Positions 5,603 through 32,147 of a DNA stretch of 64,000 nucleotides are shown in pieces. The notes beneath the pieces are model-generated. The model had not been told where the DNA came from. It did not search any database and saw nothing but the letters and a program-made list of their open reading frames with translations. The position numbers and the translations under genes are program-made. Origin of the DNA: an uncultured Verrucomicrobiota bacterium. Its GTDB lineage: Bacteria; Verrucomicrobiota; Verrucomicrobiia; Opitutales; Opitutaceae. Where the stretch lies: positions 1 to 64,000 of the forward strand of contig CAIRBK010000051.1 in assembly GCA_903876795.1 (NCBI GenBank), read 5' to 3'. The stretch's first letter is position 1; every line of letters begins with the position of its first letter.

Positions 5603-6181
5603 TTAAGGATGGTCCGCCGAGGTGATTTTTAGGTCCGCCAGATCGACCTGCCCCGGCACCGAGCCAAAGGCGATCACCAGGCGGGTTCCCAAGCGTTCAA
5701 ATTCTCGCGGGGCGACGGCGATGAATTCGTATTGTTTCCATTCCGGGGTCACAACAAACGAGGTTTTGCCCTTGGTGAGGGCGGCATAGGGAGGGACAGA
5801 CTCCAAAATATCTCCCGTGATGCTCAGCGACTGCGGGCTGCGCGCCCAAAAGCGAATCGTGAGGATTTCTCCTTCATTTAAAGGACGGCGGATCGCGTTA
5901 ACGATTTGGGCGCTGTAAGGTTTATCCCCGCTCTTCGGGGTGACGACATTGCGGAGAATTTTCTTGGGGAATTTATCGGAATTAACCGGTATCTCCGTGG
6001 TAGGTAGAACGGTCATCGCGACGGTCGGGCTCGAGTTCCAGCCGTTCAGCTCCTGGCTGAAGTCGCCATTGAGCAGATAGACCATCGGCTTTTCTTGAGC
6101 GTGGGTCGTAGTGGCTGCTCCGAAGACGAGAACGGCGGTCAACGCGAGGAGGAGGGAGGAGAGCGGAGTCTTTGATTTCAT
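5603..6181 (-). CDS. Secreted carbohydrate-binding-like (CBM4/9-type) protein
   Basis: The 192-residue product has a clear signal peptide ending in THA-QE (about residue 28). The mature part begins with LLNGDFSQELNGWNS, the usual opening of galactose-binding-like CBM4/9 folds, and ends with a beta-rich segment typical of these jelly rolls. No catalytic domain is present. I chose the ATG at 6181 because it starts the signal peptide and overlaps the stop of the upstream gene as ATGA, implying translational coupling. The open frame extends further upstream to 6601 but that part is a shadow of the neighbouring gene. It is the last gene of the long minus-strand cluster and probably binds the polysaccharide attacked by the beta-helix proteins. 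Confidence 0.65.
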   Translation of the reverse strand: MKSKTPLSSLLLALTAVLVFGAATTTHAQEKPMVYLLNGDFSQELNGWNSSPTVAMTVLPTTEIPVNSDKFPKKILRNVVTPKSGDKPYSAQIVNAIRRPLNEGEILTIRFWARSPQSLSITGDILESVPPYAALTKGKTSFVVTPEWKQYEFIAVAPREFERLGTRLVIAFGSVPGQVDLADLKITSADHP

Positions 6182-8763
6182 GGTTTGGAGGGTGGATTGG
6201 GTTGGGTGGTGGAAAAAGCGGGTTCGTCGTATTCGAGCCAACTGCCGTAGATGAAGTTGCGCAGTGCGGTGATTTGCCGGGGTGTGAGGACCACCTGAGG
6301 GTAGCGTGCGGCCTCGGAGGCGAGCGGGCTTTCCGGCGTGAAGCGGAAATCGTAATCGCCCGGAGCCACCAAGCCGGGGTCGGCGATGCGGGAGCCGGAT
6401 TCGCGGGCGTCGATCCAGCCCTGCAACGTGGTGGCTGTTCCGCCTTCGTCGATTTGGTTGGAGCCGTCGTTGGTGGCTACGCCTTTCTTGATGTTGTAGG
6501 TCACCGGCTGGCGGCTGGCGGGCGCCCAGAAGGTGTTCCCGCTGCCGGTGTAGGTGTAGGGGTGGTAGGTTTCTTTGTCGGGATCGCGCACGTCCGTCCA
6601 TTCGATCAGACCGCGTGAAAAAGGCGGCTGGACGGCGAGGACGGTATTACGGATTTCCACCCGCGGTTTAAAAAACGCTGCTTGGCTCGTGATGGCATGA
6701 GCATCGGTGCGGTCGTTGCCGCCGAAGCGGAAGGCTTGCTCAAAATTGGGCAGCGAATGTTGCCCCGCCGTGGTGATGATGGAGTACTCCAAACGGGAGT
6801 GCCCCGTGTTGAATACGTAGAAGCTGCGATCCGCGTTGGCCAGGAGGAGACGACGTCCGTGAAAGGGACCGGCGGCGAGTTCCCAATGCAGGGTGCCGTG
6901 GTTGAGGTTATCGACAAGGGTGACGTCCTGCATGTAGATATTCTTGCAGTCGATGTCATACCAGAACCCGTGGTCGGCGTTGCCGATGGAGGTGTGGCCG
7001 AGGACGAGGTGACCGTCGGTGCGGTGGGCTTTGACTGCGGCGGAAGCGAAGCCGGTGTCGCCGCCCCAGTGGCCGCGCCAGTTATTGAAGTTGGTGGTGT
7101 TGTTTATCCAGAGGGCGTCCTTCAGGCCGTCGGTGTTGAGGCCGCTGCGGCCGTTGTAGGAGGATTCGGTGTCGCGCACCGTCCATTTTTCACCGGCGAT
7201 TTGCATGCCGGTGTTGGCGTTCCAAAGGAAGCGGCAGCGGTCAATGAGCACGTTGGTGGAGAGCGGGCCGCCGAACGCAGCGAAGTGGATTGCTCGTCTG
7301 TGCGGTTCGTTGGCGACGCGGAGCACGGTGAGGTTACGCAGGACAAGGTTATGTTTGTCCACGAAACGGATCAGGTTTCGACGCACGCTGACTTCGATGC
7401 TGTCCTCCTTGAGAACCTCGCCGGCGGGCACGCGTATCCAGATTTTTTGGCCGTTTTCAGCGCGTTCGATCACGCCGAATTCACCGGGGCGCAGGATGGT
7501 TTTCGCATCGCGAAAGTTGGAGTAGGTATGGGTGATTTTCTCCCCCTTGGGAGTGCGCAGCCCAACGCCCGTCGTGGCGTAGGTTTCGAGGATGCGAGGC
7601 TTGAGCGGGCGGTCGTTCAGGAAAGCCATCTCGCTACGCTGGCTGACGAGCGCGCGGTTGGAATCCCAGCGCCAGGCGTAGTTGCCGAACTGGTGCGGCC
7701 ACGGATGGGAATACAGGCCGTCGCCTTCGTTTTTCCATTTGGAGAGGGGGAAAACATCCGCGCCGGTCCATTGCACTTCGCCTTCGCCCTCGACCACGAA
7801 CATGGTGCTGCGGGCGGGTTCGGCAGTCCAATCAAGCGCGGGGGCGGATTCGCGATAGATGCCAGGGGCGAGGACGAGCTTGGTCGGCACGCCCCGCATC
7901 AGACTGTCGTAGGCTTTTTGAAAGCCGTCGGCGAGCGAGGTCGTGTCGGCTTTTTTACCGGAGGCATCGACGCGGATGATTTTCTGGACCGTGTTTTCAT
8001 CAATCTGCGCGCCGGTGATGGCGGTGGTATCGAACAGGTCGGAGAGACTCGTTTTCGACGTGAGCGCAGCTTCGATGGCGGCAGTGCGCAGGGCCTCGGC
8101 TTGAGCGGCGCTGACGACGGCAGCGGCAGTTGATTGTTTAGTCGGCGGTTCTGCGGACCATGTGATCGAGGCGATCTCGACCTGCCCACTTTGGCGCAAC
8201 GCCAGAACCAATTGCGCGGCGGGATCGGCGTAAACGGGATGAAGGTTCAGTTCGTAGTCGGCCCAGTTTTGGGTTAACGAGAGGTTATGGCCAGCAATCC
8301 AGCGCGGGAGCTGGGTGTGGGCGGATTCCTGCACCCAACCTCTGTCCGGGTTTTTCTGATACAAGTCGATGCGGGCGAGCGACTGGCGCAATCCGATCAG
8401 CAGCGGAGTGGCGGAGGTGCTGCGGGCGCGGAGTTTGATGCGGAGAACTTTAGCGGGAGTGACGGCGATGTCCGGGCGCACGACTTGCGCCTGGCCGCGG
8501 TCGATGGAGCGGGCGTCGATCTGCAAAAAGGGCGTTGAGGCTGCTGAGTCTTGGGCGCGGGAGTAATGAACCGCGACCTTGGCGCTGCGGTAGGAGGAAT
8601 CGTCGATCCACCCCGGCGGCAGTTGGCCGGAGATTTCCGAGGGGGAATCGGCATTGGCCTGGGTGACGGGAACGAACTTGTTGGCAAAAGAATCGGCCAG
8701 TGCCGGCCGGGCGAGGGAGGTAATTAAAACAAGGGCGTAAACGAGTGAACGAGGGGTAAACAT
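6178..8763 (-). CDS. Secreted right-handed beta-helix protein, 861 aa
   Basis: A signal peptide (cleavage near PALA-DS, about residue 23) precedes a jelly-roll-like N-terminal domain of about 200 residues, then a linker and a right-handed parallel beta-helix from about residue 260. At the entry to the helix is the element WTGADVFPLSKW followed by G-L-Y-S-H-P-W-P, which recurs in variant form in the other beta-helix proteins of this window. The central helix carries NFNNWR, then VKAH, then GFWYDIDCKN. The Lys and the Trp-x-Asp are kept in all five family members and may form an active site. Polysaccharide hydrolase or lyase activity is inferred from fold and context, not proven. Its stop overlaps the next start. 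Confidence 0.7.
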   Translation of the reverse strand: MFTPRSLVYALVLITSLARPALADSFANKFVPVTQANADSPSEISGQLPPGWIDDSSYRSAKVAVHYSRAQDSAASTPFLQIDARSIDRGQAQVVRPDIAVTPAKVLRIKLRARSTSATPLLIGLRQSLARIDLYQKNPDRGWVQESAHTQLPRWIAGHNLSLTQNWADYELNLHPVYADPAAQLVLALRQSGQVEIASITWSAEPPTKQSTAAAVVSAAQAEALRTAAIEAALTSKTSLSDLFDTTAITGAQIDENTVQKIIRVDASGKKADTTSLADGFQKAYDSLMRGVPTKLVLAPGIYRESAPALDWTAEPARSTMFVVEGEGEVQWTGADVFPLSKWKNEGDGLYSHPWPHQFGNYAWRWDSNRALVSQRSEMAFLNDRPLKPRILETYATTGVGLRTPKGEKITHTYSNFRDAKTILRPGEFGVIERAENGQKIWIRVPAGEVLKEDSIEVSVRRNLIRFVDKHNLVLRNLTVLRVANEPHRRAIHFAAFGGPLSTNVLIDRCRFLWNANTGMQIAGEKWTVRDTESSYNGRSGLNTDGLKDALWINNTTNFNNWRGHWGGDTGFASAAVKAHRTDGHLVLGHTSIGNADHGFWYDIDCKNIYMQDVTLVDNLNHGTLHWELAAGPFHGRRLLLANADRSFYVFNTGHSRLEYSIITTAGQHSLPNFEQAFRFGGNDRTDAHAITSQAAFFKPRVEIRNTVLAVQPPFSRGLIEWTDVRDPDKETYHPYTYTGSGNTFWAPASRQPVTYNIKKGVATNDGSNQIDEGGTATTLQGWIDARESGSRIADPGLVAPGDYDFRFTPESPLASEAARYPQVVLTPRQITALRNFIYGSWLEYDEPAFSTTQPNPPSKP

Positions 8764-10452: not shown

Positions 10453-11258
10453 GAGGCGAGGGTGCGTTGATGAAGAGTGCGCAGTTCGGTGTCGGCCAAG
10501 GCGCGGTCAAAGACGGCGAGGCCACCGATGAGCCCGGCGAAGGTGTTACCCATGGTCGTCACCGGATCGAAGCGCGGGTGGCCGAGGCGGAAGTCGGGCA
10601 GCGATACCGCCCCAACGGTGAAGGCACTGGCCCCGGCGTCGCCTCCGCAGTGGATGCCCGCCGAGTAGGGATACGGGCTGCGTTGCGGGTGAGGGTCGAG
10701 GTGGTCGTTGAGGTAGGAACGGATGGCGGTGCCGTCGTAGGTCATGGCGACGAGCGACCATACGTCGTCGAGCACGGGCGTGGAACCGGAGGAGGCGTCG
10801 TCGCAGTGTTTTAACCCGACCGAGTGCCCGCCGGTGGCGGAGACATGGCCGCAGACCTGGCGGTTGGACTTCACACCCGAGAGACCGAGGCCGAGGAAGA
10901 GTCCGTATTGGCGGCGCATGGCGCGCTCATCCCAAAGCCCGGCGATGAAGTCGCACCACGGCGGGTCCTGGCGGCGGGGTTTGATCCAGGCGACGACGCT
11001 AACCTGGGCGGCGGGGCCGTGGAGGTTGAGTGCCGGACATTCGGCGGGCGGACAGGTGAGCCAGCGCCCGGCGGCGAGATCGGCGGAGTGCGGTCCGAAG
11101 ACGCCTTCGTCGGCGCGGGGCACGGGCGCGCCGCACTCGCGCAACGGGCTGGGTTGCGGGCCGAGGGCGAGGCGCGGGTCGCCGGCGGGTTCTTGGAAAG
11201 TCCAGAACGCGCGTAGGCCGGGTAAGGTTGAAACGAGGGACGGAGAGGCCGGGGTCAT
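10449..11258 (-). CDS. LamG / concanavalin A-like domain protein
   Basis: The 269-residue product is essentially one concanavalin A-like (LamG) jelly-roll domain. Typical features are the opening LRAFWTFQEP, the internal strand VSVVAWIKP, the segment WSLVAMTYDGTAIRSYLN, and the end IGGLAVFDRALADTELRTLH. Such domains often bind glycans but are found in many contexts. No signal peptide or membrane segment is visible, unlike the beta-helix neighbours, so it is predicted to stay in the cytoplasm. Both ends overlap neighbours as ATGA: its start overlaps the stop of the 936-residue beta-helix gene and its stop overlaps the GH13 start. This means three genes are translationally coupled. The specific ligand is unknown. 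Confidence 0.7.
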   Translation of the reverse strand: MTPASPSLVSTLPGLRAFWTFQEPAGDPRLALGPQPSPLRECGAPVPRADEGVFGPHSADLAAGRWLTCPPAECPALNLHGPAAQVSVVAWIKPRRQDPPWCDFIAGLWDERAMRRQYGLFLGLGLSGVKSNRQVCGHVSATGGHSVGLKHCDDASSGSTPVLDDVWSLVAMTYDGTAIRSYLNDHLDPHPQRSPYPYSAGIHCGGDAGASAFTVGAVSLPDFRLGHPRFDPVTTMGNTFAGLIGGLAVFDRALADTELRTLHQRTLAS

Positions 11259-14065
11259 TTGACGATGAAGGGCAGGTAGTTGGCGGTGGAGGCGTTGCCG
11301 TCTCCTTCGCCGATGAGGGTGAGGCGTTTGATGGTGGCCACGTTGTCGCCTTCGCCGTCGCGGTCCGTGATGTTGAGGTTAAGGGCGATGCTGCCGCCTG
11401 CGGCTAGAGTAGGTTGCCCGTGGAGTTCCGATAGCGGGACGGCCATTTCCAGCACCCAGCCGTCCGCCGTGCGTTTGGCGAAGGAGCGGATGGCCTCGGC
11501 CTTCACCTGCCCTCTCGGTTGCATCCAGTCTTTGGATGGGATGGCACCATCCGCGGCAGGCCAGGCGACGATGAATTGTCCGGTGCCGGATGCGTGTTCT
11601 GCGTTGCGCTGGTCTTGCGGGCGGGTGTCCCAGAAGATTTCCAGCGCGTCTTGCTCCCAACGGGGGCCCTCGGTGACTGAGCGGATGTCGTCCTGCACGG
11701 TGATGGCGAGGAACAGGGAGGTGCCGTCGGTGGCGGCTTGGAACTTGGCGCGTAAATCCACCGGGGTTCCCCAGTCTTTGAGCAGTCCTTTACCGGCAAA
11801 CACTTGCGCGGGACGGCGAATTTCTTGCGCGGGGAGTTTGGCCCATTCCGTTAAATCGCCATCAAGCGTGGCGGCGGCGAGCAATGACATGTGCCCCGGT
11901 TGGACGATGTCGATGATCCCGTTGGCGGTTTGGGGTTCCAGACCCTCTCCTTTGGCGGCGAGTTTGAGGGCGAGGCTGCTCGCGGTGATGTTTCCGCGCG
12001 GTTTCAGGGCGATTTGCACAAGGCCCGTGCGTCCCGGAGGAATCGTCGAGGCTTTCGTCTGGGCTTCCCAACTGCCGGAGCCAAGGGAGCCTTCCACCGT
12101 CAACTCACGGGTGGTGGGGTTGCGGACTATGAGGCTCAGGGTGCCGCCTTGGGCGGGGATGCGGAGGTTGGCGAGGGCGTGCTTGATGGAGGTTTTGAGC
12201 AGGACGAGTCGTTCCGCGTCGGTGGCGAGGGGCAGGGCGGCAAGGTTGAGGGGTTTGCCCTCCAGCGGGTTCAGGGCTTCGAGGGCGGCATCACTGATGG
12301 GTGCCCAAGTGGACGAAGGGTCGATCTGCGCAAGAGCGGAGTCAGGCGCGTAGGTAATGTTCAGACGTCCCGCGCCTTCTTGATCCGCCGCTGGAGCGAG
12401 GAAGCCATCTTGTGCGCCAGCCTGAAAGAAGCGGTTGCGTTCACTCGTGAAGGTCTTGGAAAATTCAGTGGCTGGGTTGAAACCGATCTCCGCGGCTTTA
12501 CCCCAATACCGCGCCCAGAAGAGGCGTCCGTTACCGGTGGTCGATTGCACGATGCTATCGCGGATGGTCCAGCGCACGGTGCGGTAGTGTTCGGCGGGCG
12601 GCACATCGGGTGTTTGCCCATCATGGGAAAAACGTTTAATGGAGGCTCGCGTTTCGTTGCGTGTATCACCCGCCACACTAATCAGTCCTTCTCCCCGCCA
12701 CGGACCTGAAATAGGGGTGGAAAGCTGCCCGTTAATGGCATCCACCAGCACGCTGCGTTCAATCGTTACGTCCGGGGAATTGACACCGTAGATGGCGCCG
12801 CCGCCGTTGCGGCGAATGACGGAATCTCGAATAACCACCGGCCCGATATTAATCTCCACTTGAACGCCCGTGCTGTTGTCTTCGATAAGACAGTTTTCCA
12901 GAGTCACGTTCTTGGGTCCCCAATCCGTCCAGAAACCGCCCGCCGCATTGCGTTGAAAGGCGCAACGCCGAAAAGTGCGATTCTCACTGCGTCCGGTGAA
13001 GTTGTTGTCCTTGGACGCACCATCGTAAAGTTTCATTCCTGCAGCATCCCAGTTAGCCATCCATTGCCTGAAGCGCCAATTGTTGTCGGAAATCGTGCAA
13101 TCCTCATAGAGCACATTGTCGCTGCGGTTAAAGGCTCCGCCGCCGCTGCCGTTGCGGGAGAATTCGGATTTACGCACGACCACATCAATCCAGTGGTTGG
13201 CATTGATGCCTCGTCCACTGGTCTCAATGAATTGGCAACGGTTAATGGTCAAATTGCGCAGACGTTGCTCAAACGTCTCGCGGGTAATCTTGATGGCGTC
13301 CAATTCAACGGCTGCGAACATGTTGTGGTTTGCTCCCCGACGGAAAATCAAACCATCAAGGGTGAGATGCGCGATGCCGTTGGCTCTCAGCAAGGGAACC
13401 GACTCCAAACCAGGACGAGAAGAAGGACGCGCGCCCCGGCGGCTGACTTCCACCTGGTCTTTTTTTGGGGTAAACGTTTCGAAAGGCTTAAACCGGATGA
13501 CTTTCTCAGTCTCATCCACCGTAAACTGCCCGGGTTTAAGGTCTTCGGAGGGTAATGCTTTGATCCCATCTAGAGCCATGACCTGCTCCACGCGACCATC
13601 ATTGATGAACATCATTTCGCGGCGGAAATAGATCGGCTTTTCATATTGGGCCGCCCCGGGTTCACGCCATGTGTTCGGCCCCCAGCCCTCGGTCCAAGGG
13701 AATTCCCAGACTCCATTGGCATCCGGGCCACTCAACTGCTCGACCGGGTCGGAGCCGTCGATGATGGCCTTGCCTGCGTTAACCGCCTTGATGGTCAGCG
13801 GCGGGGCGGAGTTGTCGTTGTTGCGGGAGGGGACGGTGTATTCCTTACGGTAATGACCGTCGGCCAGAAGCACGGTAATCGGCCCGGCAGGGTTGCGGGT
13901 GGCGTCGAAGGCCGCTTGGAGTTCAAGGGCGTGGGCGGGCGAGGAGCCGTCGGCTTTGCCCGCGGCGGCAGGGGCGGCGTGGAGGATGCGTTCTTGCGCC
14001 TTGGCGGGCGGCGTGAGCGCGAGCAGCGGCAGGAGTAAGCCGAACAGGAGGTGGGGTAGTTTCAT
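11255..14065 (-). CDS. Secreted beta-helix protein with C-terminal CBM9-like domain (copy A, 936 aa)
   Basis: A signal peptide (MKLPHLLFGLLLPLLALTPP, cleavage near AKA-QE, residue 24) precedes a right-handed beta-helix. The entry element reads IIDGSDPVEQ, then G-V-W-E-F-P-W. In the helix are DNNWRFRQW, GMKLYDG and GFWTDWGPKN, matching the Lys and Trp-x-Asp signature of the other family members. After about residue 700 comes a domain with LDGDLTEWAKLP, DALEIFWD and GWVLEMAVPLSEL, characteristic of CBM9-like carbohydrate-binding domains attached to bacterial glycoside-active enzymes. The neighbouring gene at 14154 encodes a paralogue of exactly the same length, so the pair is a tandem duplication. 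Catalytic role is inferred. Confidence 0.72.
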   Translation of the reverse strand: MKLPHLLFGLLLPLLALTPPAKAQERILHAAPAAAGKADGSSPAHALELQAAFDATRNPAGPITVLLADGHYRKEYTVPSRNNDNSAPPLTIKAVNAGKAIIDGSDPVEQLSGPDANGVWEFPWTEGWGPNTWREPGAAQYEKPIYFRREMMFINDGRVEQVMALDGIKALPSEDLKPGQFTVDETEKVIRFKPFETFTPKKDQVEVSRRGARPSSRPGLESVPLLRANGIAHLTLDGLIFRRGANHNMFAAVELDAIKITRETFEQRLRNLTINRCQFIETSGRGINANHWIDVVVRKSEFSRNGSGGGAFNRSDNVLYEDCTISDNNWRFRQWMANWDAAGMKLYDGASKDNNFTGRSENRTFRRCAFQRNAAGGFWTDWGPKNVTLENCLIEDNSTGVQVEINIGPVVIRDSVIRRNGGGAIYGVNSPDVTIERSVLVDAINGQLSTPISGPWRGEGLISVAGDTRNETRASIKRFSHDGQTPDVPPAEHYRTVRWTIRDSIVQSTTGNGRLFWARYWGKAAEIGFNPATEFSKTFTSERNRFFQAGAQDGFLAPAADQEGAGRLNITYAPDSALAQIDPSSTWAPISDAALEALNPLEGKPLNLAALPLATDAERLVLLKTSIKHALANLRIPAQGGTLSLIVRNPTTRELTVEGSLGSGSWEAQTKASTIPPGRTGLVQIALKPRGNITASSLALKLAAKGEGLEPQTANGIIDIVQPGHMSLLAAATLDGDLTEWAKLPAQEIRRPAQVFAGKGLLKDWGTPVDLRAKFQAATDGTSLFLAITVQDDIRSVTEGPRWEQDALEIFWDTRPQDQRNAEHASGTGQFIVAWPAADGAIPSKDWMQPRGQVKAEAIRSFAKRTADGWVLEMAVPLSELHGQPTLAAGGSIALNLNITDRDGEGDNVATIKRLTLIGEGDGNASTANYLPFIVK

Positions 14066-14150: not shown

Positions 14151-14153
14151 GGC

Positions 14154-16964
14154 TCATTTGACGATGAAGGGCAGGTAGTCGGCGGTGGAGGCGTTGCCTT
14201 CGCCTTTGCCGGTGAGGGTGAGGCGTTTGAAGGTGGCCAAGTTTGCGTCTTCGCCGTCGCGGTCGCTGAGGTTGAGGTTGAGCGCGATGGAGCCTCCGGT
14301 CGCGAGCGCGGTTTGGCCACCGAGTTCGGATAGCGGGAGTGCCAACTCCAGCACCCAGCCATCTGGAGTGCGTTTGGCGAAGGAGCGGATCGCCTCCGCG
14401 TGGAGCTGGGTGTTGAGAACCTGCCAATCCTTGGCGGGGATCGGGCCATCCGTCGCCGGCCAAGTTACGATGAGCTGGCCGGTGCCGGTGCCGTGCTCGC
14501 CGTTGCGTGCGACGGGGGCGCGGTTGTCCCAGAATATTTCCAACGCGTCTTGCTCATAAAGAGCACCCGGGGTGACCGAGCGGGTGTCGTCCTGCACGGT
14601 GATGGCGAGGAGAAGGTTTTTGCCGTCGGTCGCGGCTTGGAGCTTGGTGCGGGCGTCCACGGGTTTCCCCCAGGTTTTCAACAAGCCTTTGCCAACGAAG
14701 ACTTGGTTGGGATTTTTGATTTCCTGGGCGGGAACCTTGGCCCATTCGGTTACATCGCCGTCGAGCGTGGCGGCGGCGAGCAGGGACATTTGCCCCGGCT
14801 GGATGAGTTCGATGATGCCGCTTGCGGATAGAGTTTCAAAACCCTCTGCTCTGGCGGCGAGTTTGAGGGCGAGGCTGCTCGCGTTGATGTTGCCGCCCGG
14901 TTTCAGGGCGATTTGCACAAGGCCCGTGCGTCCCGGAAGAATCGTCGGGGCTTTCGTCACGGCTTCCCAACTGCTGGAGCCAAGGGAGCCCTCAACCGTC
15001 AACTCACGAGTGGTGGGGTTGCGGACTTCGAGGCTCAGGGTGCCGCCTTGGGCGGGTAGGCGGAGGTTGGCGAGGGCGTTCTTGATGGAGGCTTTCAGGA
15101 GCGCGAGCCGTTCCTGTTCGGAAGCGAGGGGTAAACCTGCGATATCCAGCGGCTTGCCCTCCAGCGGGTCCAGGGCGGCGAGGGCGGCATCGCTCGTCGG
15201 TTCCCATTTTGCACTTGGGTCGATCTTGGCCAGCGCGGTATCGGGCGCGTAGTTGAGGACGAATTTGCCCACGCCCGTTTCGTCTGCACCGCCGGCAATG
15301 AAGGCGTTGCCGGGTTGGAGCTGAAAGTAGCGGTTGCGTTCACTCTTAAACGTGGGGGCAAATTCGTTGGCGGGGTTGAAGCCGATCTTCGCCGCCGCGC
15401 CCCAGTAGCGGGCTTCGAAGAGGCGTCCGTTTTCGCCGGTGGATTGGATGATGCTTTCGCGGATTGTGAGGCGTTTCGACCGGTAATGCGTGGCGGGTGG
15501 ATAGCTGCCCGGCTCGATTTTTTTATCCGTCTGGCTGTGCATGTCGGATTCAATGTTGTCCTCGTTACGCACATCCCCGGCCACGGTGATGATGGCATCG
15601 GACTTCCATGGCCCGGCTACCGGGGTGGACATTTTGCCGTTAATGGCGTCCACCAAAACGCAGCGCTCAAAGGTGATGTCGGGCGAGTTCACGGCGTGAA
15701 GCACGCCGCCGCCGTTGCCGCGAATCACCGTGTCGCGGATGAGCGCGGGGCCTTGTTCGATCTCGAAGCCCAGACCGTTGCTGTTGTCGGCGATGAGGCA
15801 GTTTTCAACAATGATGCGCCTGGGACCCCAGTCGAACCAGACCCCGGCTGCGGCATTGCGTTGGAAAGAGCAGCGGCGAAAGGTCAGGTCTTCGCTGCGT
15901 CCCTTGAATCGCTTGTTCTGAATGGAACCGTCGATGTTCTTGGATCCTGCCGCGTTCCAAGTCGCGCCCCAGGTGCCGTATTTCCAGTTGTTGTCGTCGA
16001 AGCGGCAGTCTTCAAAAAGCGCATTGGTGGTGGAGACGATGCCGCCACCGCCTACTCCGTTGCGACTGAAACTGGAGCGGCGGACCGTGAGGTTGTCGGT
16101 CATGCCCTGCCACCACCCGGAGCCGTTGTTTTCGATGAACTGGCAGTCCGTCACGGTGATGTCTTTGACCCTGCGTTTTTGTCCGCCCAGCCACAAGGGC
16201 GGGCCATAAATCGAGGCCGCAGAACGCCGGAAGACGATGCCATCCAGGGTGAGGTTGCCCACATCGAGGGCGGTCATTAGCATCACTTTTTCGTTATGCA
16301 TGTTTTCATCCGGTTTCACCGCCTTGGTGCCACGGCGGCTGATTTCGATCAACGCGGTCTGCGGATCGACACCGGCGGGCGGTTTGATGCGGAGCACCTG
16401 CGCGGCTTCGTCCACGGTGAATTGGCCGGGCTTGAGGGCACTGGCAGCTGTCGGCGCGATGGCATCCGGCTGCATGACTAACTCCTGGCGTTCGCCGTTT
16501 ATGAAGATCAGTTCGCGGCGCACCATGATGGGTTTAAACGCCCACATCAGCCCGGACGAGGGCCGATCCCGCGAAAGCCCCCAGCCCTCTGTCCACGGGG
16601 TCGTCCAAGTGCCATCCGCATCTGGCCCGGTCCAGTCCGTGACGACATCCGAGCCGTCGATGATGGCTTTGCCCTTGTTCACGGCGCGCAGGGTCAGCGC
16701 TTTGTCGGTATCGTCGTCGGTGCGAGCCGGAATGACGTAGATATTTCGATAACTGCCATCAGCCAGCAGAAGGGTGATGGCTTGGGTCGGATTCTTGGTC
16801 GTATTGAGCGCGGCCTGGAGTTCTAGGGCGTCGGCGGGTGAGGAGCCGTCGGCTTTGCCAATGGCGAAGGGAGCGACGTGGAGGATGTGTTCTTGGGCCT
16901 TGGCGGGCGGCGTGAGCGCGAGCAGAGGCAGGATTAAACCGAACAGGAAGTGGGGTAGTTTCAT
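14154..16964 (-). CDS. Secreted beta-helix protein with C-terminal CBM9-like domain (copy B, 936 aa)
   Basis: This is the paralogue of the gene at 11255-14065, with the same length and order: signal peptide MKLPHFLFGLILPLLALTPP, right-handed beta-helix, CBM9-like C-terminus with LDGDVTEWAKVP and DALEIFWD. The family signature is present as DNNWKYGTW, GSKNIDG and GVWFDWGPRR. The C-terminal third and the signal peptide are far more alike between the copies than the beta-helix core. This fits duplication followed by divergence of the glycan-contacting part, or continuing gene conversion at the ends. There is no ATGA coupling to a gene upstream; 208 bases separate it from the 832-residue protein gene, with a TATAAT on the minus strand at 17115-17120 that could be an internal promoter. 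Confidence 0.72.
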   Translation of the reverse strand: MKLPHFLFGLILPLLALTPPAKAQEHILHVAPFAIGKADGSSPADALELQAALNTTKNPTQAITLLLADGSYRNIYVIPARTDDDTDKALTLRAVNKGKAIIDGSDVVTDWTGPDADGTWTTPWTEGWGLSRDRPSSGLMWAFKPIMVRRELIFINGERQELVMQPDAIAPTAASALKPGQFTVDEAAQVLRIKPPAGVDPQTALIEISRRGTKAVKPDENMHNEKVMLMTALDVGNLTLDGIVFRRSAASIYGPPLWLGGQKRRVKDITVTDCQFIENNGSGWWQGMTDNLTVRRSSFSRNGVGGGGIVSTTNALFEDCRFDDNNWKYGTWGATWNAAGSKNIDGSIQNKRFKGRSEDLTFRRCSFQRNAAAGVWFDWGPRRIIVENCLIADNSNGLGFEIEQGPALIRDTVIRGNGGGVLHAVNSPDITFERCVLVDAINGKMSTPVAGPWKSDAIITVAGDVRNEDNIESDMHSQTDKKIEPGSYPPATHYRSKRLTIRESIIQSTGENGRLFEARYWGAAAKIGFNPANEFAPTFKSERNRYFQLQPGNAFIAGGADETGVGKFVLNYAPDTALAKIDPSAKWEPTSDAALAALDPLEGKPLDIAGLPLASEQERLALLKASIKNALANLRLPAQGGTLSLEVRNPTTRELTVEGSLGSSSWEAVTKAPTILPGRTGLVQIALKPGGNINASSLALKLAARAEGFETLSASGIIELIQPGQMSLLAAATLDGDVTEWAKVPAQEIKNPNQVFVGKGLLKTWGKPVDARTKLQAATDGKNLLLAITVQDDTRSVTPGALYEQDALEIFWDNRAPVARNGEHGTGTGQLIVTWPATDGPIPAKDWQVLNTQLHAEAIRSFAKRTPDGWVLELALPLSELGGQTALATGGSIALNLNLSDRDGEDANLATFKRLTLTGKGEGNASTADYLPFIVK

Positions 16965-17172: not shown

Positions 17173-19671
17173 TTATTCCCAATCGTTGAGTTCGGTGGTC
17201 ACCGTCGGGGAGTAGCCCACCCACTGGAAGAAAGCTCTCATCTTCTCCTGAGTTTCGGACTGGATGACCCACTGCGGGAGCTCTTTGCGGTCTTTCAATG
17301 GCGAATCTTCGCGGAAGCGAAAGTCGCCGTTCTGTGGGTCTCGCAGGCCCGGATCTCGCCAGACTGAATCGGTCTCTTCGCCGCTGGCGATGGTTTGCGC
17401 CAGAGTGTATGTCTCGCCGATATTACGATCCTGAGGACTGCGACTAAGCCACAGTGCACGCTCCGAGTCGGGCGACCAGAAGGTGTTGCGGAAACCACGA
17501 TACGTCAGGGTGTTCATTCCCGGCGCGCGATTCACCAGCCAGTGGGTTTGGATGGCTTGGTTCTTCCCGAGCGCAACCACGACGCTATCCCGAATCATAT
17601 GCAGTCCCATGACGAGCGACTCGACAGTTCCGTGCACGTCCTTACGCCAGTCGGCGATTCCAAACAACACGGATGCGGAAGACGGACCGTCGCCATTACC
17701 AACCAAGAGGCTGTTTTCGATGATCGCCGAGCCGGTCTGCCACCAGTTGACCTCCGTCGATTCGTTCATGGCGATGAGCGTGCGACGTGCGACGAAGGGG
17801 CCTTGAGAAATTTCCCACTGAATACCGCCGCGGTTAAAGGCGAGGACACTATCTTCGACCAGCGCGCGTTTGCAGTTGATGTCCCACCAGAGAGCGGGGC
17901 CTGCGCAGACATTTCCGATAGCGGTATGGCCGCGCACGACTACGCCGACGGTGTTGTGGAATTTTACCCCACCGTACGCAAAGCCGGAATCTCCCGCACG
18001 CAGGGCACGCCAGCCGTTGAAGTTGGTGGTCACTTTCTCAAACAGGAGATCGATATTGTCGCCTGTGCTGATACCGCCTTTGCCGTTGTAGGCGGCTTCG
18101 ATGTTGCGGAGCGTCCAGTTCTGGCTTTTGGGGATGTTTAGTCCCACGGCGTTGTTCCAGAGGAAGCGGCAGTTTTCGATCAGCACGTTGCGGACGTTGT
18201 CCGGCGCCCAACGAATCACGCCTTCGTCCCAGCGCGAGGCGGTGTTGCAACGCTGGAAGGTGATGCCGCGAATGACGAGATTGCTCTTGCCGCCAAAGTT
18301 GACCAGCGACGGTCGCACGGTGTATTCGATATCGTCTGACGGCTTCTGGCCGACGGGAAGCCGGAGATAGACGCGCGGACCCTCCGGTGGCTGCGCGGAT
18401 ACGCCAAAAGTGAACGGGGCGGTCAGGGACATGGCGGGATCGCGGCGCTCCTTGAAAGTGAAGACCGGCTTTTGACTTGAGCGCGGCCAGGGCTTGGCGT
18501 CGTAAACGTCGAGGATGACCTGACGAGCTGGACGACTACCGATAAACAGTTGTTCGCTCTGCCAGCCGATGCGCCGGGTCATGCCCCAGGGATAATCCAC
18601 GGGCGGGCGCACTTCTTTCAAGGGGTGAGACCACAGCCCCCGACCCTCATCTTTCCATTGATTTGCTGGCAGCGGATCGGCTCCGCTCCAGATGACCTCG
18701 CCACCGGGTGCGGCTTCCAGGACCAAGAGCGCATCGCGCGTCGGGAAGCCCTGCCAGTTCACATCGGTCACCGCTTCGCGATAGGTTCCCGGCGAGATGA
18801 GAAGTTTGGTCGGGATGGCCTTGGACAATGCATCGCGGGCGGCGGCGAGGCCGGCTCGCAAGGTGCGGTAGTTGGTCGCTGTTTCGGGTGCTTCTGGGTT
18901 TATGGTGAGGGTTTGGCGGATTTCGGTCTCATCGATGGTTGCGCCGGTTACTTTGGAATAATGCACTTTGGGGTCCCAGGGTTTAACCTCCTCGGCGCTC
19001 AGAGGAGCCGGTGGTTTCGTGGTGACAGGCAGTGCCGCTAATTCAACCGAGGGCTCAAGACCCACGACACGAAAGTCCGCAACTTCCACCGTTTGATCGG
19101 CCGTTCGGTTGAATTGCAGGTAAAGTTCCAAGCCGCCGGGTTCTGCGCTGGATGCGACTTTCGCGGCCACTGCTTGCCGCACCCACCCTTGTTCCAGGGT
19201 GGACTTCATGTTTTCAGTCAAAATGATTCCCGCAGGACTGCTCGTCGTGCGAACGCCCACGGTCAGATAGCCAGTCTTTTTTTCATCGGAAGTAGTGCGG
19301 GTGCGCATCCAGAACTCCACATAGAGCACCGTTCCAGAACCGACGGGTGTCGCATTCAAGGCCTTCACCTGCACCGTCCAGAAGTTCACGCTGATTCCAG
19401 CGGAGGAAGCCAGGCTGTGCACTTTTTTAAGCGCGTCAGGGTGATCAATAACCGGATTAAACGAGGTGTTTTTTGTGGGTTTAAAGCCAGACAAGAGATC
19501 GGCGCCCCAAGGCTGGGTGCCCACGGAGGGGAGCACGCCGGGAGGTTCAATTGTTCTGAAAACTTCAACGGCTCCCAAATTGAGGGATAGGAGCAAAGGC
19601 AGCAGGAGCAGAACGGTGGAAAATGCGTGGAGCGGGCTGCGGCGTAATGTTTTTTGGGGGGATTTTTTCAT
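17173..19671 (-). CDS. Secreted right-handed beta-helix protein, 832 aa
   Basis: The product has an N-terminal membrane-directed segment (VLLLLPLLLSLNLGA, residues about 20-34) preceded by several Lys/Arg, consistent with a signal peptide. An N-terminal jelly-roll-like domain (to about 230) and a beta-helix follow, the same plan as the 861-residue protein at 6178-8763. The entry element is WSGADPLPANQWKDEG, then G-L-W-S-H-P. The helix carries NFNGWR, GVKFHN and ALWWDINCKR, the conserved Lys and Trp-x-Asp. Unlike the 936-residue copies there is no CBM9-like tail. It starts 17 bases after the DUF6259 gene stop. Substrate unknown. Confidence 0.7.
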   Translation of the reverse strand: MKKSPQKTLRRSPLHAFSTVLLLLPLLLSLNLGAVEVFRTIEPPGVLPSVGTQPWGADLLSGFKPTKNTSFNPVIDHPDALKKVHSLASSAGISVNFWTVQVKALNATPVGSGTVLYVEFWMRTRTTSDEKKTGYLTVGVRTTSSPAGIILTENMKSTLEQGWVRQAVAAKVASSAEPGGLELYLQFNRTADQTVEVADFRVVGLEPSVELAALPVTTKPPAPLSAEEVKPWDPKVHYSKVTGATIDETEIRQTLTINPEAPETATNYRTLRAGLAAARDALSKAIPTKLLISPGTYREAVTDVNWQGFPTRDALLVLEAAPGGEVIWSGADPLPANQWKDEGRGLWSHPLKEVRPPVDYPWGMTRRIGWQSEQLFIGSRPARQVILDVYDAKPWPRSSQKPVFTFKERRDPAMSLTAPFTFGVSAQPPEGPRVYLRLPVGQKPSDDIEYTVRPSLVNFGGKSNLVIRGITFQRCNTASRWDEGVIRWAPDNVRNVLIENCRFLWNNAVGLNIPKSQNWTLRNIEAAYNGKGGISTGDNIDLLFEKVTTNFNGWRALRAGDSGFAYGGVKFHNTVGVVVRGHTAIGNVCAGPALWWDINCKRALVEDSVLAFNRGGIQWEISQGPFVARRTLIAMNESTEVNWWQTGSAIIENSLLVGNGDGPSSASVLFGIADWRKDVHGTVESLVMGLHMIRDSVVVALGKNQAIQTHWLVNRAPGMNTLTYRGFRNTFWSPDSERALWLSRSPQDRNIGETYTLAQTIASGEETDSVWRDPGLRDPQNGDFRFREDSPLKDRKELPQWVIQSETQEKMRAFFQWVGYSPTVTTELNDWE

Positions 19672-23725: not shown

Positions 23726-23735
23726 GGTCGGCGGG

Positions 23736-24512
23736 TTAATGGATGTGCGCGCCGCCGTTCACATCGAGCACGGCCCCGGTGATGTAGCGGCCGCCTTCGC
23801 CGCACAGGAAGGCGACGGCTAGGCCGACGTCGCGCGGGTTGCCGATGCCGAGGGGCACGGAGGTGGCGATGTTGGAAATCTCCTCGGCGCTGTGGACGGT
23901 GCGCAGCAGCTCGGTATCAATGATGCCGGGAGCGACGGCGTTGACGCGGATGCCGACGGGCGCTCCGGTGCGGGCGAGGGTGCGGGTGAGGCCGAGCAGT
24001 CCGGCCTTGCTGGCGGAGTAGTGGGCGTGGCCCAGCAAAGCACCCCGTTCGGCGGCTACGGAACTGATGTTTACGATGCAACCGCCCCGCCGTTGCTCCA
24101 TCCGGGCGAAGGCTTCTTTGCTGCAAAGAAAGGCGCTGGTCAGATTGATGCGCAGCAGGTCGTTCCAATCGTTAAGCGTAGTATCCCGGATGGTTTGCGG
24201 CCGGGAGGTGCCGGCGTTGTTTACGAGAACATCGATCACCCGGCCATCTGCGTCGAGGTCGGCGAACAAGCGGCGGACGGCTGGCTCGTCGGACACGTCG
24301 ATTTGATGATAACCGGCGAACTTTTCCTTGGCCCTGAGGGCATGGATGGCCTCGGACGCATCTTTTTCGGCCGTGATGTCGGCTATGGCGATTTGGAATC
24401 CTTGATCCGCCAGGGTTTCAGCAATTCCACGACCAAGGCCGCGCGCAGCTCCGGTGATCAAGGCCAGGCGCGATGGCAACTGTGAGGAGGGGGAGAGGGT
24501 TGTCGAAAGCAT
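23736..24512 (-). CDS. SDR-family NAD(P)-dependent oxidoreductase
   Basis: A classical short-chain dehydrogenase of 258 residues. The Rossmann dinucleotide motif is TGAARGLG (20-27), the structural NNAG lies at 98-101, the catalytic Ser is near 150, and Y165-x-x-x-K169 is in HYSASKAG. The C-terminus (GAVLDVNGGAHIH) is of the common sugar or ketoacyl-reductase type. It is the first gene of the minus-strand cluster and lies next to the MBL-fold hydrolase and dehydratase genes. An aldose dehydrogenase role is therefore attractive, for example oxidation of L-fucose or D-galactose to the lactone. The sequence alone cannot tell this from a ketoreductase such as a 2-keto-3-deoxy-sugar-acid reductase. 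Start chosen at ATG 24512. Confidence 0.8.
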   Translation of the reverse strand: MLSTTLSPSSQLPSRLALITGAARGLGRGIAETLADQGFQIAIADITAEKDASEAIHALRAKEKFAGYHQIDVSDEPAVRRLFADLDADGRVIDVLVNNAGTSRPQTIRDTTLNDWNDLLRINLTSAFLCSKEAFARMEQRRGGCIVNISSVAAERGALLGHAHYSASKAGLLGLTRTLARTGAPVGIRVNAVAPGIIDTELLRTVHSAEEISNIATSVPLGIGNPRDVGLAVAFLCGEGGRYITGAVLDVNGGAHIH

Positions 24513-24524
24513 TCCCGAATATGC

Positions 24525-27896: not shown

Positions 27897-30800
27897 ATGA
27901 AATCAAGCGCCGCCCCGCGCCTAAAAATCCCCGTCTGGAATCCACTCCTGCTCGTCTTGGCCGCGCTGCTCTCGTTGCTTTTTAATCACGCATCCGCCGC
28001 CACTGGAGCGACCGATATCGACGCCATCTATAATTCGTGGCCCGGCACTAAACTAACCTATTATGTGCGCCTCCCCTCCGGCGCCCCGGGTGCTGTCGCA
28101 CCCTTTGGCAATGACAGCAATGCAGGCACCTCTAACTCAACGGCCTTCGCCACCATTCAGAAGGGTCTCGATATGGCGATGGCTCAGAAAAAGCTGGGTA
28201 ACGCCGTTAAGCTCATCATCGGTCCCGGAACTTACCGGCCCGGCACTGCCAACGATACCTATGCTTTTGCGCTGACTTTCAACACCGACCTGGCCAGCGC
28301 CAATTCAGCCCCGCTCATCATAGAAGGAGCAGGCTGGTCCTCCATCTCGCCCGGCAACACTGGCGATGTCATTATCACCGGTTCCGAGGTCTGGACCGGC
28401 ACGCAGGGGCCTTCATCCATTTCGGGTGCCGGCTGGACCAACAACGGCAATGGCACTTGGTCAAAACCCTGGCCCTATGCCTTCGGCGTGCCCAGCAAGA
28501 GCACGTTTCAAGGCGTGCCCGACAACTACGGCCTGTCCGACGCCTTGCTCCGGGGCGAACTCGTTCATGTCAACGGCCAGACCTACTACTGCATCAACCC
28601 GCCGACTGATTATACCAACACCAACAGCGTCAACAATTCCCTAGGCAATCCCAGGATCGGTCCCAGCTACTTCAGTTTTCCGGCCAATGACTCCACTTCC
28701 ACGAACAACGTGAATGGCGGCCGCCTGACCACCACCAGCGAGGGCCGCTTCTGGATTCGCGATGCGGTGCTCGATTTCAGTCTGAACATCGTCACCATGG
28801 GTAGTATCACCGTGCGCCCGCCCGATGGATTTGATTTCGGCGCGGCTGGAAACAGCGTAGAAGTGACGACCAAGCGCGGGCTGATGCAGATATATCTTCC
28901 TTCCGTGCCGGCCCAGGCCACGAACATCGTGTTGCGCAACCTCACATTTCAACATGCGGGCAGCCGGCCCGCAGTGACCGTGCAAAATCAAAACAACCTG
29001 CTGATCGAGGATTGCCGCTTCATCAACTCCAAGCGATCCGGCATCGTGGTCGCTCCAGGTGGCAAAAACATTACCCTCCGGCGGATTGAGGCCTCCGGCA
29101 ACGGTGTCAATGGCGCCGGAGTCAGCGATGTCACCAACGCCCTGCTCGACCAATGCGCGTTCAACCAAAACGCCCGCCAGGCAGAAATTCTTGGCTATGT
29201 GGATTGGTCCAGCGGCGGCATCAAACTCATGGATACGACAGACGCCACCCTTCTCCAATCGGAAGCTAAGAACAACCGGGGCGACGCCGGTTTCTGGTGG
29301 GATGAAAGCAACAAAAACGGAAAGGTGGTGGAGTGTGTCTCATTAAATAACTCTGGAATAGGTGTTTATATCGAAGCGAACACCTCGGTCGGCAACAACT
29401 ACTCCCGTTCCACCTCCGATGGTGTCGGGACGGAAGGCCTTGCCGATCTGGGCACCACGCCGACCGTCACCGTGCTTCGTAGTGTCATCGCCGACAACGC
29501 CGCAGTCGCGGGCACCGAGAACTTCTATTCCACGAAATCCGGCCAGGGTTTTTGGATCAAGGAGAGCGAGAACGCCGTGATCGACGGCAATCTCATCGTG
29601 AACAACAGCATTCAGATTTCCACCAACGACGCCTCGCGCGGTGAGGTGCGCAACAACGTGATCCGCAACAACGTGATCGCCGCCGGCACGGGTCAGCGGC
29701 TCTATGCCTATGGCAACAAGGGCAGCTCGAGCATCACCATCGCCCTCAAGCAATTGCTGGTCGATTCCAACGGAAACGCTGTGCTCGATTCCGACGGCAA
29801 CAAGCAATACGTGGACAAGACCAGCGCCCCCCAAACCCTCAAAGGTTCCTGGTATGCCCTCTTCGACAGCCTCAGTGACTCGACCAACGACAATCTTTAT
29901 TACTATCCCTCCCAAACCGCCTTTCCCTCGCGTGCGCAGCGTGACGGCACCAACACCTCTCCGGCTCCTGCGCTGACACTTTCGGGGTGGAAAACGGCGG
30001 ACCGTTATGATGCCAACAATGCGTTGTTGACGGATAAAAATGTCGATTCCCGTTCGCTTGTGATTTGGGACACCTCCTATGATCGCAGCCGTCCCTTGGT
30101 TGCCGTTACGCCTTTGGTCGATAGCATATTGGAGACGAATTCCGACACCGCCGTTTTTCAGGTGACCCGCGTGGCGATGCCGGAAACCGGCTACGCTAGC
30201 CCGCTGACCGTAAACTATTCCCTGCGGAGCAATACCGGCGACGCCATCAATGGCACGGATTTCCAACTGCTTTCCGGCACGGTAACGATCCCGGCCAATC
30301 AGCGCTCGGTAAACATTACGGTCACCCCCACGGCCGATGCTCCTTCCGAAGACAACGAGACCATCGCGCTGGTCCTGGGTTCGGGTAGCTATGTGGTCGC
30401 AAAAACCACCGCCACCGTCCTGCTCTTAAACGTTCCGGCCGCCCCTACCGGACTAACTGCCACCGTCGCGTCCGACACGCAGGTCAACCTCGCCTGGACC
30501 GCCGTCCCCACCGCCACCGGCTACACCGTCAAACGCGCCACCACCAGTGGCGGCCCTTACACGACCGTCGCCTCCGGCCTCACCACCACCAACCATCCCG
30601 ACAGCGGCCTGAGTGCAGGCACCACCTATTACTACATCGTCATCGCCGCCAACTCGGGCGCAGAAGGCGCGGCCAGCAGCGAACAATCCGCCACCACCTG
30701 GACCGCCCAGCAAGCTTGGCGTTATCAATACTTCGGCACCATCGCCAACACCGGCACTGCCGCCAACACCGCCGACCCCGATGCCGACGGGCTCACCAAC

Positions 30801-32147
30801 GCCACCGAATATGCCGCCGGCACCGATCCCAAGGTATTCACGCCCCTCGACCCGATTTCGCTCAGCACGTCCACGCTCAGCTACACACAAACCTTCGATA
30901 TCCTGGCCACCTCCGGCACGCCTTTCTGGTTGAACGGCTTCACCCTTCCCGGCTGGTATGGCTGGACCGGCGGAGCCGCTCCCACCACCTACAGCGCCGC
31001 CGACGGCTCCAGCGCCAACGCCAATAGGGTGCTCAGCGTCGGCTCGGCGACGGTGAACCCCACCGACCGCGCCCTCGGTGCCCAAACTGGCGGCAGCCCC
31101 GCCCCGGCGCTTTACCTCGGCCTCGCCCTCAAAAACGCCACCGGCGCGACGCAGACCGCCCTGCGGATCACCTATGACGCCGAGGTCTGGCGCTCCAACG
31201 GCCAAGCTGGCGATGGCTACACCGTGCAATACCAGATTTTCACCGCCGGGGGCGGCTCCATTAACGCCGCCTCGGGCTGGACTACGGTTCCAGCCCTCGC
31301 GTTCACCAATACTCGGAACGGCGGTGCGGTCGCGCTTAATGGTAACTCCTCCGCAAATCGCACCGCCGACATCGCGGCCAACCTCACCGGCCTCACTTGG
31401 GCCAATGGACAGGAACTTTGGATTCGCTGGTCTGACAACACCGCCCTTGCCCAGATCATGGCCTTGGACAACGTCCGCGCCCGGCTCCTGATTCCCGCCA
31501 CGCCCGCGGGCCTCACCGCCACCGCGTCCGCCGCCGGTGCGCTTACCCTCGCTTGGACGGCCGGAGACGCCGCCCAGACCGGCTACCTCCTCGAATACCG
31601 CGTCAACGGTGGCGGTAGTTGGACGACGCTCACCCCCGCGCCCGCGTCCTCAGCCACCAGCTATACGCACACCGGCCTCGCGGCGGGCACCACCTACGAT
31701 TACCGTCTGAGTGCCACCAACACTTACGGCTCCTCCGGCTCCGTGACGGCCAGCGCGACGACGTGGACCGCCCTCCAAGCCTGGCGCGCGAACAACAGTC
31801 TTGCCTTCGACGGCTCCGGCACCGCCGCCAACACCGCCGACCCCGATGGCGACGGCCTCAACAACCTGCTCGAATACGCCCTCAACGGCACGCCGACCAA
31901 CGCCGCCTCCGCCCCGTTCCCCACCGCCTCCCTGCTCCCCTCTCCCAGCTCCACGCTCCAGATCACCTTCCACCGCGCCCGCCCCGCCACCGAACTCACT
32001 TACACCGTCCAGGCTAGCAGCGACCTCGTCACCTGGACCGACCTCGCCACCAACCCCGGCACCGTCGGCCAGGACGTCACCGTCACCGACTCCCCTCCCA
32101 CCGGCACCACCCGCCGTTTCATGCGGCTCAAAATTTCCATTCCATGA
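27897..32147 (+). CDS. Secreted beta-helix protein with Calx-beta, two FN3 and shared C-terminal domain
   Basis: The 1416-residue product has a signal peptide (ends ASA-AT, about residue 35). A right-handed beta-helix runs to about 740, with the entry element ITGSEVWTG and later G-T-W-S-K-P-W-P. It carries GIKLMDT and GFWWDESNKN, the Lys and Trp-x-Asp signature of the other beta-helix proteins here. Then come a Calx-beta domain (about 741-845), an FN3 domain (848-936), a D-x-D-x-D-G repeat (about 955-965), a jelly-roll-like domain (985-1200), a second FN3 (1200-1288) and the 128-residue C-terminal module shared with the GH28-like protein at 1018-5307. It is on the opposite strand from its relatives. 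It probably acts on a polysaccharide at the cell surface; the enzyme class is unproven. Confidence 0.75.
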   Translation: MKSSAAPRLKIPVWNPLLLVLAALLSLLFNHASAATGATDIDAIYNSWPGTKLTYYVRLPSGAPGAVAPFGNDSNAGTSNSTAFATIQKGLDMAMAQKKLGNAVKLIIGPGTYRPGTANDTYAFALTFNTDLASANSAPLIIEGAGWSSISPGNTGDVIITGSEVWTGTQGPSSISGAGWTNNGNGTWSKPWPYAFGVPSKSTFQGVPDNYGLSDALLRGELVHVNGQTYYCINPPTDYTNTNSVNNSLGNPRIGPSYFSFPANDSTSTNNVNGGRLTTTSEGRFWIRDAVLDFSLNIVTMGSITVRPPDGFDFGAAGNSVEVTTKRGLMQIYLPSVPAQATNIVLRNLTFQHAGSRPAVTVQNQNNLLIEDCRFINSKRSGIVVAPGGKNITLRRIEASGNGVNGAGVSDVTNALLDQCAFNQNARQAEILGYVDWSSGGIKLMDTTDATLLQSEAKNNRGDAGFWWDESNKNGKVVECVSLNNSGIGVYIEANTSVGNNYSRSTSDGVGTEGLADLGTTPTVTVLRSVIADNAAVAGTENFYSTKSGQGFWIKESENAVIDGNLIVNNSIQISTNDASRGEVRNNVIRNNVIAAGTGQRLYAYGNKGSSSITIALKQLLVDSNGNAVLDSDGNKQYVDKTSAPQTLKGSWYALFDSLSDSTNDNLYYYPSQTAFPSRAQRDGTNTSPAPALTLSGWKTADRYDANNALLTDKNVDSRSLVIWDTSYDRSRPLVAVTPLVDSILETNSDTAVFQVTRVAMPETGYASPLTVNYSLRSNTGDAINGTDFQLLSGTVTIPANQRSVNITVTPTADAPSEDNETIALVLGSGSYVVAKTTATVLLLNVPAAPTGLTATVASDTQVNLAWTAVPTATGYTVKRATTSGGPYTTVASGLTTTNHPDSGLSAGTTYYYIVIAANSGAEGAASSEQSATTWTAQQAWRYQYFGTIANTGTAANTADPDADGLTNATEYAAGTDPKVFTPLDPISLSTSTLSYTQTFDILATSGTPFWLNGFTLPGWYGWTGGAAPTTYSAADGSSANANRVLSVGSATVNPTDRALGAQTGGSPAPALYLGLALKNATGATQTALRITYDAEVWRSNGQAGDGYTVQYQIFTAGGGSINAASGWTTVPALAFTNTRNGGAVALNGNSSANRTADIAANLTGLTWANGQELWIRWSDNTALAQIMALDNVRARLLIPATPAGLTATASAAGALTLAWTAGDAAQTGYLLEYRVNGGGSWTTLTPAPASSATSYTHTGLAAGTTYDYRLSATNTYGSSGSVTASATTWTALQAWRANNSLAFDGSGTAANTADPDGDGLNNLLEYALNGTPTNAASAPFPTASLLPSPSSTLQITFHRARPATELTYTVQASSDLVTWTDLATNPGTVGQDVTVTDSPPTGTTRRFMRLKISIP

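Follow-up and report, generated by a model that had tools for sequence, protein, structure and literature searches.

Five beta-helix proteins of an Opitutaceae genome probably represent an uncharacterised branch of multidomain glycoside hydrolases related to GH120 beta-xylosidases

The first 64,000 nucleotides of contig CAIRBK010000051.1, from an uncultured bacterium of the Opitutaceae (Verrucomicrobiota; assembly GCA_903876795.1) and hereafter called the window, encode five beta-helix proteins with different added domains, raising the question of whether they share an active site and what that site might do. An initial annotation, made from the sequence alone, took a conserved Lys and Trp-x-Asp (W-x-D) as signs of one active site in an undescribed polysaccharide-active family with several substrates. 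We found all five open reading frames (ORFs) at the starts it gave, four on the minus strand and one on the plus strand. Our analysis indicates that they are likely secreted, multidomain retaining glycoside hydrolases (GH), forming an uncharacterised branch related to GH120 beta-xylosidases and acting by a GH120-like mechanism. The proteins and their putative active-site segments are:

6178..8763, minus strand: protein 1, 861 amino acids; N-terminal region without Pfam match, then a predicted GH120-like beta-helix catalytic module; Lys578, W601-Y-D603, Glu628
6865..7035, minus strand: active-site segment of protein 1 (VKAHR ... WYD ... WELAAGP), aligned with GH120
11255..14065, minus strand: protein 2, 936 amino acids; predicted catalytic module and C-terminal CBM9-like domain; Lys345, W379-T-D381, Glu404
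12839..13057, minus strand: active-site segment of protein 2 (W-x-x-A-G-M-K ... WTD ... VEINIGP), mapped on the structure 3vst via the family profile
14154..16964, minus strand: protein 3, 936 amino acids; CBM9-like domain; Lys342, W376-F-D378, Glu401
15747..15965, minus strand: active-site segment of protein 3, from the motif positions
17173..19671, minus strand: protein 4, 832 amino acids; N-terminal module like that of GH10 proteins, then the predicted catalytic module; Lys570, W595-W-D597, Glu620
17797..17988, minus strand: active-site segment of protein 4, from the motif positions
27897..32147, plus strand: protein 5, 1416 amino acids; predicted catalytic module, weak Calx-beta, two fn3 stretches and a C-terminal module as in the protein starting at 1018; Lys443, W467-W-D469, Glu493
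29199..29393, plus strand: active-site segment of protein 5, from the motif positions; Glu in IEANTSVG, with G-N replacing G-P

Alignments of the five proteins bore out the shared signature, since all of them keep the entry element G-(S/A)-(D/E) followed by G-x-(W/Y)-x-x-P (in the versions GLYSHP, GVWEFP, GTWTTP, GLWSHP and GTWSKP), as well as the Lys and the later W-x-D. Additionally, we identified a Glu that the initial annotation did not mention, located 25, 23, 23, 23 and 24 residues past the W-x-D Asp in proteins 1 to 5, respectively, and followed by G-P in four proteins and by G-N in protein 5. This Glu is not an invariant column in the five-protein alignments, one of which (A2) contains 26 such columns, because protein 5 is aligned there in a shifted register; the column is invariant in two further alignments of the window proteins, one of them made jointly with GH120.

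For comparison across relatives, we assembled a family set of 37 rows, consisting of ORFs from the relatives' loci at E 1e-20 or better after removal of duplicates, five of which are those of the window. Taken alone, the pattern K-x(22-45)-WxD-x(20-26)-E is present in 32 of the 37 family ORFs; it also appears in 25 of 370 ORFs outside the family with 300 or more amino acids, some of them GH120 proteins. It is too loose to count as evidence, and a conserved Lys and W-x-D among five relatives mean little alone. As judged from the alignments, the weight of the motif lies in its position-specific conservation in the 32 non-window rows and in its coincidence with known catalytic residues. As aligned, and with three gap rows per column, the non-window rows keep the Lys in 27 of 29 cases, the Trp in 28, the Asp in all 29 and the Glu in 26, this last count rising to 28 of 29 after correcting the register of L065 and L070, where the Glu is shifted as in protein 5. 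Deviations were found in L080, with Leu at the Lys column and Ser at the Glu column, and in the copy on contig C13 of the same genome as the window, with Arg at the Lys column, Tyr at the Trp column and an interrupted reading frame. Six residues ahead of the Lys lies a further conserved position, occupied by Trp in 27 of the 29 rows.

The link with GH120 emerged from the scan of relatives, which brought in three loci: a homologue (P0001) from a metagenome-assembled genome (MAG) labelled Nitrospiraceae, and two proteins of GH120 itself (P0002 and P0003), matched by PF21258, the Pfam model of the GH120 insertion domain, at 1e-34 and 1e-32. In a joint alignment of these three with the five window proteins, 13 columns were invariant, including K336, W361, D363 and E386 (numbering of the protein 4 module). 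So that the comparison would not be circular, a further profile (A4) was built without GH120 rows, using P0001 and the five window proteins. Among its nine matches in all PDB sequences, the top one was 3vst_A, the GH120 beta-xylosidase XylC (E 1.8e-12), with two aligned stretches, the first spanning the entry and insertion parts (3vst 8-228) and the second containing the Lys, W-x-D and Glu. By residue count in the 3vst rows, W-x-D pairs with W380-L-D382, the Glu with E405 (in VEVSHGP) and the Lys with K358, six residues after H352; the Asp-Glu spacing is 23 in XylC and 23-25 in the five proteins.

These pairs acquire a function from the biochemistry of GH120. Excerpts of one study assign Asp382 of Ts-XOS as the nucleophile and Glu405 as the acid/base, and state that three homologous enzymes lost activity when the equivalent residues were changed to Ala (PMC8954004). 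Position 352, His in TsXylC and Trp in BaXylB, is the sole active-site position differing between these two enzymes, according to excerpts of another (PMC6887791). A role for K358 itself was not found in the portions of the literature consulted, and the 'XylC' of PMC12125979 is, in the excerpt consulted, an unrelated binding protein.

Profile comparisons agreed with this assignment. In hhalign, the family (31 rows) matched GH120 (five rows) with a probability of 99.6 and E 1.2e-23, with Lys, Asp and Glu aligned; likewise, in the reciprocal search with the GH120 profile, the seven best ORFs below the GH120 rows were all family members, starting at 1.9e-13. Residue homology and conservation are shown computationally.

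We modelled two modules with AlphaFold2, that of protein 2 (m6f77bb51c588; mean predicted local distance difference test score, pLDDT, 69.6; predicted template modelling score, pTM, 0.77), with no GH120 rows in its alignment, and that of protein 4 (m1094723ef733; mean pLDDT 79.2, pTM 0.86). Computationally, both fold as right-handed beta-helices interrupted by a domain that follows the entry coils, matching the GH120 layout. The top Foldseek match was 3vst for both, with E 3.8e-13 for protein 2 (runner-up 1.3e-9) and 5.1e-14 for protein 4, and GH110, GH136 and GH87 structures appeared at lower ranks in both lists. Secondary structure assignment with DSSP placed K336, D363 and E386 of the protein 4 model in strands 335-338, 358-363 and 381-386 (blocks of pLDDT 83-88), and K326, D362 and E385 of the protein 2 model in strands 323-328, 357-362 and 380-385 (pLDDT 72-80). 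The three residues thus recur at intervals of three strands, occupying the same strand position in three consecutive coils, and these strands probably form one sheet in the models. The initial annotation had considered that the residues might lie on opposite faces of the helix; this was not seen in the two models, where they appear to share an equivalent strand position. Because they are two residues apart on one strand, the Trp and Asp of W-x-D should point the same way, presumably outward, and the residue between them (Y, T, F, W and W) inward.

From these results, the catalytic module would be a right-handed beta-helix with a domain inserted after its first coils, past the entry element. 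Hydrolysis would proceed by double displacement with retention, the W-x-D Asp serving as nucleophile and the Glu of the next coil as acid/base, and the Lys one coil before the Asp, together with the Trp around it, would line the sugar-binding pocket. The single active site put forward initially is therefore supported but is not new, as W-x-D and the Glu coincide with the GH120 nucleophile and acid/base pair. A clean match to a described family with other catalytic residues had also been named as an outcome that would speak against the proposal; a match to a described family was indeed obtained, but with the same catalytic Asp.

Several observations weigh against this interpretation or limit its support. 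Template modelling (TM) scores to 3vst were modest (0.49-0.54, with root-mean-square deviations, rmsd, of 8-10 Å), and the alignment of the protein 4 model contained two GH120 rows among eight. In VIA-align, the GH141 structure 5mqp_C (Z 22.9, rmsd 2.9, 375 residues aligned) stood above 3vst for protein 2, 3vst ranking 23rd with Z 21.4 and rmsd 3.6, although its 443 aligned residues were the most among the best 50. For protein 4, 5mqp_C reached Z 26.9 and 3vst was not among the best 50; absence from the rows listed does not, however, exclude a family. The GH120 profile scored the window proteins weakly (1.2e-7 for protein 3, 4.8e-6 for protein 4, 9.1e-4 for protein 2, 0.29 for protein 1 and 0.63 for protein 5), behind other family members (best 1.9e-13), and some non-family beta-helix ORFs outscored all five, for example the GH141 protein L057 at 2.1e-10. 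In single phmmer searches of the PDB at E 1, 3vst was absent from the full lists of proteins 2 and 4 (2 and 11 matches) and from the best 60 of 68 matches of protein 5, and no relevant glycosidase was among the matches listed for these three proteins. PF21258 gave no match in the five proteins at E 1 and none in the whole genome. In hhalign, the beta-helix group L025-L029, from four genomes of the same family and one of the same order, matched our family at 99.8, higher than GH141 at 99.0. Lastly, the conservation counts are not fully independent, because the rows were chosen by a motif-bearing profile and several are paralogues.

The GH141 matches make it necessary to consider that the five are divergent GH141-type enzymes (alpha-L-fucosidase, xylanase or endo-fucanase) using an Asp pair as in BT_1002. 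The BT_1002 structure, 5mqp, was among the next Foldseek matches of both models besides its higher VIA-align Z, the window carries two GH29-type alpha-L-fucosidase genes, and the W-x-D Asp aligns on the Asp of a GH141 D-W-G motif kept in nine of nine GH141 rows (one of ten loci, L060, was dropped by the motif filter). The essential pair of BT_1002 is nevertheless D523/D564, 41 residues apart, in excerpts of PMC12786026. Located by this spacing, the pair would consist of the Asp residues in Y-D-V-A-G and Y-T-D-E-G (528 and 569 in chain numbering), at least about 60 residues past the D-W-G Asp, which is not part of it; the pair of our family is 23-25 apart and its Glu aligns on a GH141 Gly. Moreover, the GH141_M model matched neither the five proteins nor anything else in the genome, 3vst was ahead of 5mqp by Foldseek E-value for both models, and 5mqp was not among the nine A4 matches. 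On the evidence of domain model, profile alignment and residues, we rejected GH141 as the home family and consider such an identity very unlikely, GH141 being a real but more distant relative. The position of the D-W-G Asp of GH141 (L055 and eight other loci) under the W-x-D Asp is, as a separate observation, a possible trace of a common ancestral site.

The highest VIA-align Z values (26-30) belonged to AlgE4 and AlgE6, which A4 also matched at 2.3e-9 and 5.3e-9, and a conserved Lys is typical of several lyases, so that polysaccharide lyases (PL) or C5-epimerases of AlgE / PL6 type, with the Lys as base, were also weighed. The printed A4-AlgE matches, however, stop at profile position 332, the Lys / W-x-D / Glu segment starting at about 334, and a W-x-D Asp with a Glu one coil later is the GH120 arrangement; this type, with the high Z in its favour, was set aside as very unlikely. 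Stacked conserved residues are frequent in beta-helices, and the five might alternatively be non-catalytic binding or surface proteins in which the conserved residues are structural helix ladders, as the variation of the site in L080 and in the C13 copy could suggest. We find this very unlikely, given that the Asp and the register-corrected Glu, kept in 29 and 28 of 29 rows, coincide with the proven GH120 pair, and that the C13 copy is frame-interrupted. Retaining hydrolases of GH120-like mechanism thus remain our preferred interpretation.

To place the branch, we computed a tree of 41 rows, comprising 31 of the 37 family rows, five GH120 and the five L025-L029 sequences; both the tree and hhalign omitted six family rows, namely L080, the copy from L064 with its broken frame, and four that were short. 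The branch leading to GH120 has a length of 1.99 and support of 100/100; a split supported at 95/94 separates the family from the ten other rows. Within the family, the window proteins fall into three supported clades, formed by proteins 2 and 3, proteins 1 and 4, and protein 5. How GH120 and L025-L029 join is unsure because long branches meet there, as the tool warned. Since it lies apart in the tree and scores weakly with the GH120 profile, the branch would work like GH120 but is not filed as GH120; its members are probably real enzymes of known mechanism because they share the GH120 catalytic residues. The proposal of an undescribed family accordingly holds in part: in the shared module, Pfam matches are confined to generic beta-helix models (Beta_helix and, in protein 5, NosD above its cut-off), the NCBIfam scan of the five proteins gave no model at or above its cut-off, and the branch stands apart from GH120, but its catalytic residues are of the known GH120 type. 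In open-licence literature, titles and abstract openings among the matches listed included no paper describing this branch, which is weak evidence of absence. We tentatively envisage, at somewhat less than even chances, a separate, secreted GH family beside GH120, diversified for several substrates other than xylo-oligosaccharides (e.g., endo-acting, or acting on the fucose-, mannose- or galactose-rich glycans apparently processed by the other genes of the cluster), with the insertion and an R-x-E motif reshaping the pocket.

The added domains agreed in part with those initially described. CBM9_1 matched proteins 2 and 3, close relatives with 56% identity (E 3.1e-15 and 9.4e-10, respectively), and fn3 matched protein 5 (E 5.8e-16), whose Calx-beta match was weak (E 4.8e-4; 20.6 bits, against a Pfam cut-off of 27 bits); the N-terminal regions of proteins 1 and 4 described as jelly rolls gave no match in the Pfam scan. 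Signal-like N termini, judged by eye, suggest that all five are secreted. Protein 5 also showed a sub-cut-off match to the Amuc_1099 family model, and its C-terminal module is common to the GH28-type protein at 1018-5307 (plus strand), with 91 of 123 aligned positions identical.

The branch has a patchy distribution. Matches at 1e-10 were found in 10 of 94 relatives, including the genome itself, and in three of 13 within the genus, and matches at 1e-40 in six of 288 genomes of the phylum, again with its own genome included; GH120_ins was found in three of the 94 relatives and not in the genome itself. The latter yielded 12 matches at 1e-15, which we merged to give 11 genes; the window holds five of them, C72 three, and C48, C13 and C56 one each. 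Three of the genes appear interrupted, the C56 gene and a C72 gene by frame changes and the C13 gene by a stop, possibly through errors, because the assembly is a draft of 103 contigs. The interrupted paralogues (L064 13265-15693, L067 8409-11159 and L068 5376-8248) may alternatively mean partial decay of the gene set. The MAG labelled Nitrospiraceae (L017, DOFS01000187.1) contains a homologue plus a second copy at a contig end, pointing to transfer or misbinning.

As to the substrate, the three supported clades and the differing added domains make several substrates, as initially proposed, plausible. A beta-xyloside or xylan-derived substrate is plausible for some members and our first guess, though we put it below an even chance; the guess arises because characterised GH120 enzymes cut xylo-oligosaccharides and because, in its own genome, the family is accompanied by GH10 genes and has a module in common with GH10 proteins. 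All six GH10 matches of this genome are on family-bearing contigs (C13, C51, C72 and C48), with the nearest family match at 0.5, 6.1, 11 and 5 kb, respectively, both C48 matches being weak and one below the curated cut-off. Two of these GH10 proteins have N termini similar to residues 14-235 of protein 4 (E 7e-21 and 7e-17). Conversely, in seven other genomes only one of 29 GH10 matches was within 20 kb of a family match (G263:C106, 1.7 kb), some contigs being short, and we rejected a general association. Other glycans are equally possible, because the window also encodes GH28, GH92, GH38, two GH29-type, melibiase-type and GH13 genes, along with a galactonate-dehydratase-like enzyme.

Elsewhere in the window, the GH13-type gene at 8869-10452 (minus strand) has an in-frame stop after residue 130, being either a pseudogene or the product of a sequence error in the draft assembly. 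A compact run at 19689-24512, with DUF6259, galactonate-dehydratase-like, metallo-beta-lactamase-fold and short-chain dehydrogenase/reductase genes beside an AraC-type regulator, resembles a sugar-acid pathway.

Together, our results replace a label of hypothetical beta-helix protein with a testable mechanism and named residues. They also show that catalytic residues of the GH120 type are not confined to the known beta-xylosidases but occur in multidomain proteins, which have expanded in a few Verrucomicrobiota genomes.

In comparison with known systems, the five proteins have in common with GH120 (XylC of Thermoanaerobacterium saccharolyticum, 3vst/3vsu; Lr-XylC; Bp-XylX) a right-handed beta-helix, an inserted domain and, in the same places, the entry element, the Lys, the W-x-D of the nucleophile and the Glu of the acid/base, although protein 4 is only 17-18% identical to the two GH120 rows. 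Unlike GH120, they carry signal-like N termini and CBM9, fn3 or other extra regions, lack a PF21258 match, and belong to a family whose insertion contains R-x-E (Arg in 31 of 31 and Glu in 29 of 31 non-window rows, with Gln for Arg in protein 4), absent from the two GH120 rows. With GH141 (BT_1002, 5mqp; Xyn141E; Wf141 endo-fucanases) they share the layout of entry region, inserted domain and beta-helix, and an Asp under the W-x-D Asp, but the essential pair is elsewhere and the Glu position holds Gly. The mannuronan C5-epimerases AlgE4/AlgE6 have the beta-helix core and the high Z in common, with a printed profile similarity that precedes the active-site segment. The group L025-L029 contains the Lys, the W-x-D and a Glu 23 residues on in all five sequences, differs in forming its own clade with full tree support, and is apparently another uncharacterised GH120-like branch.

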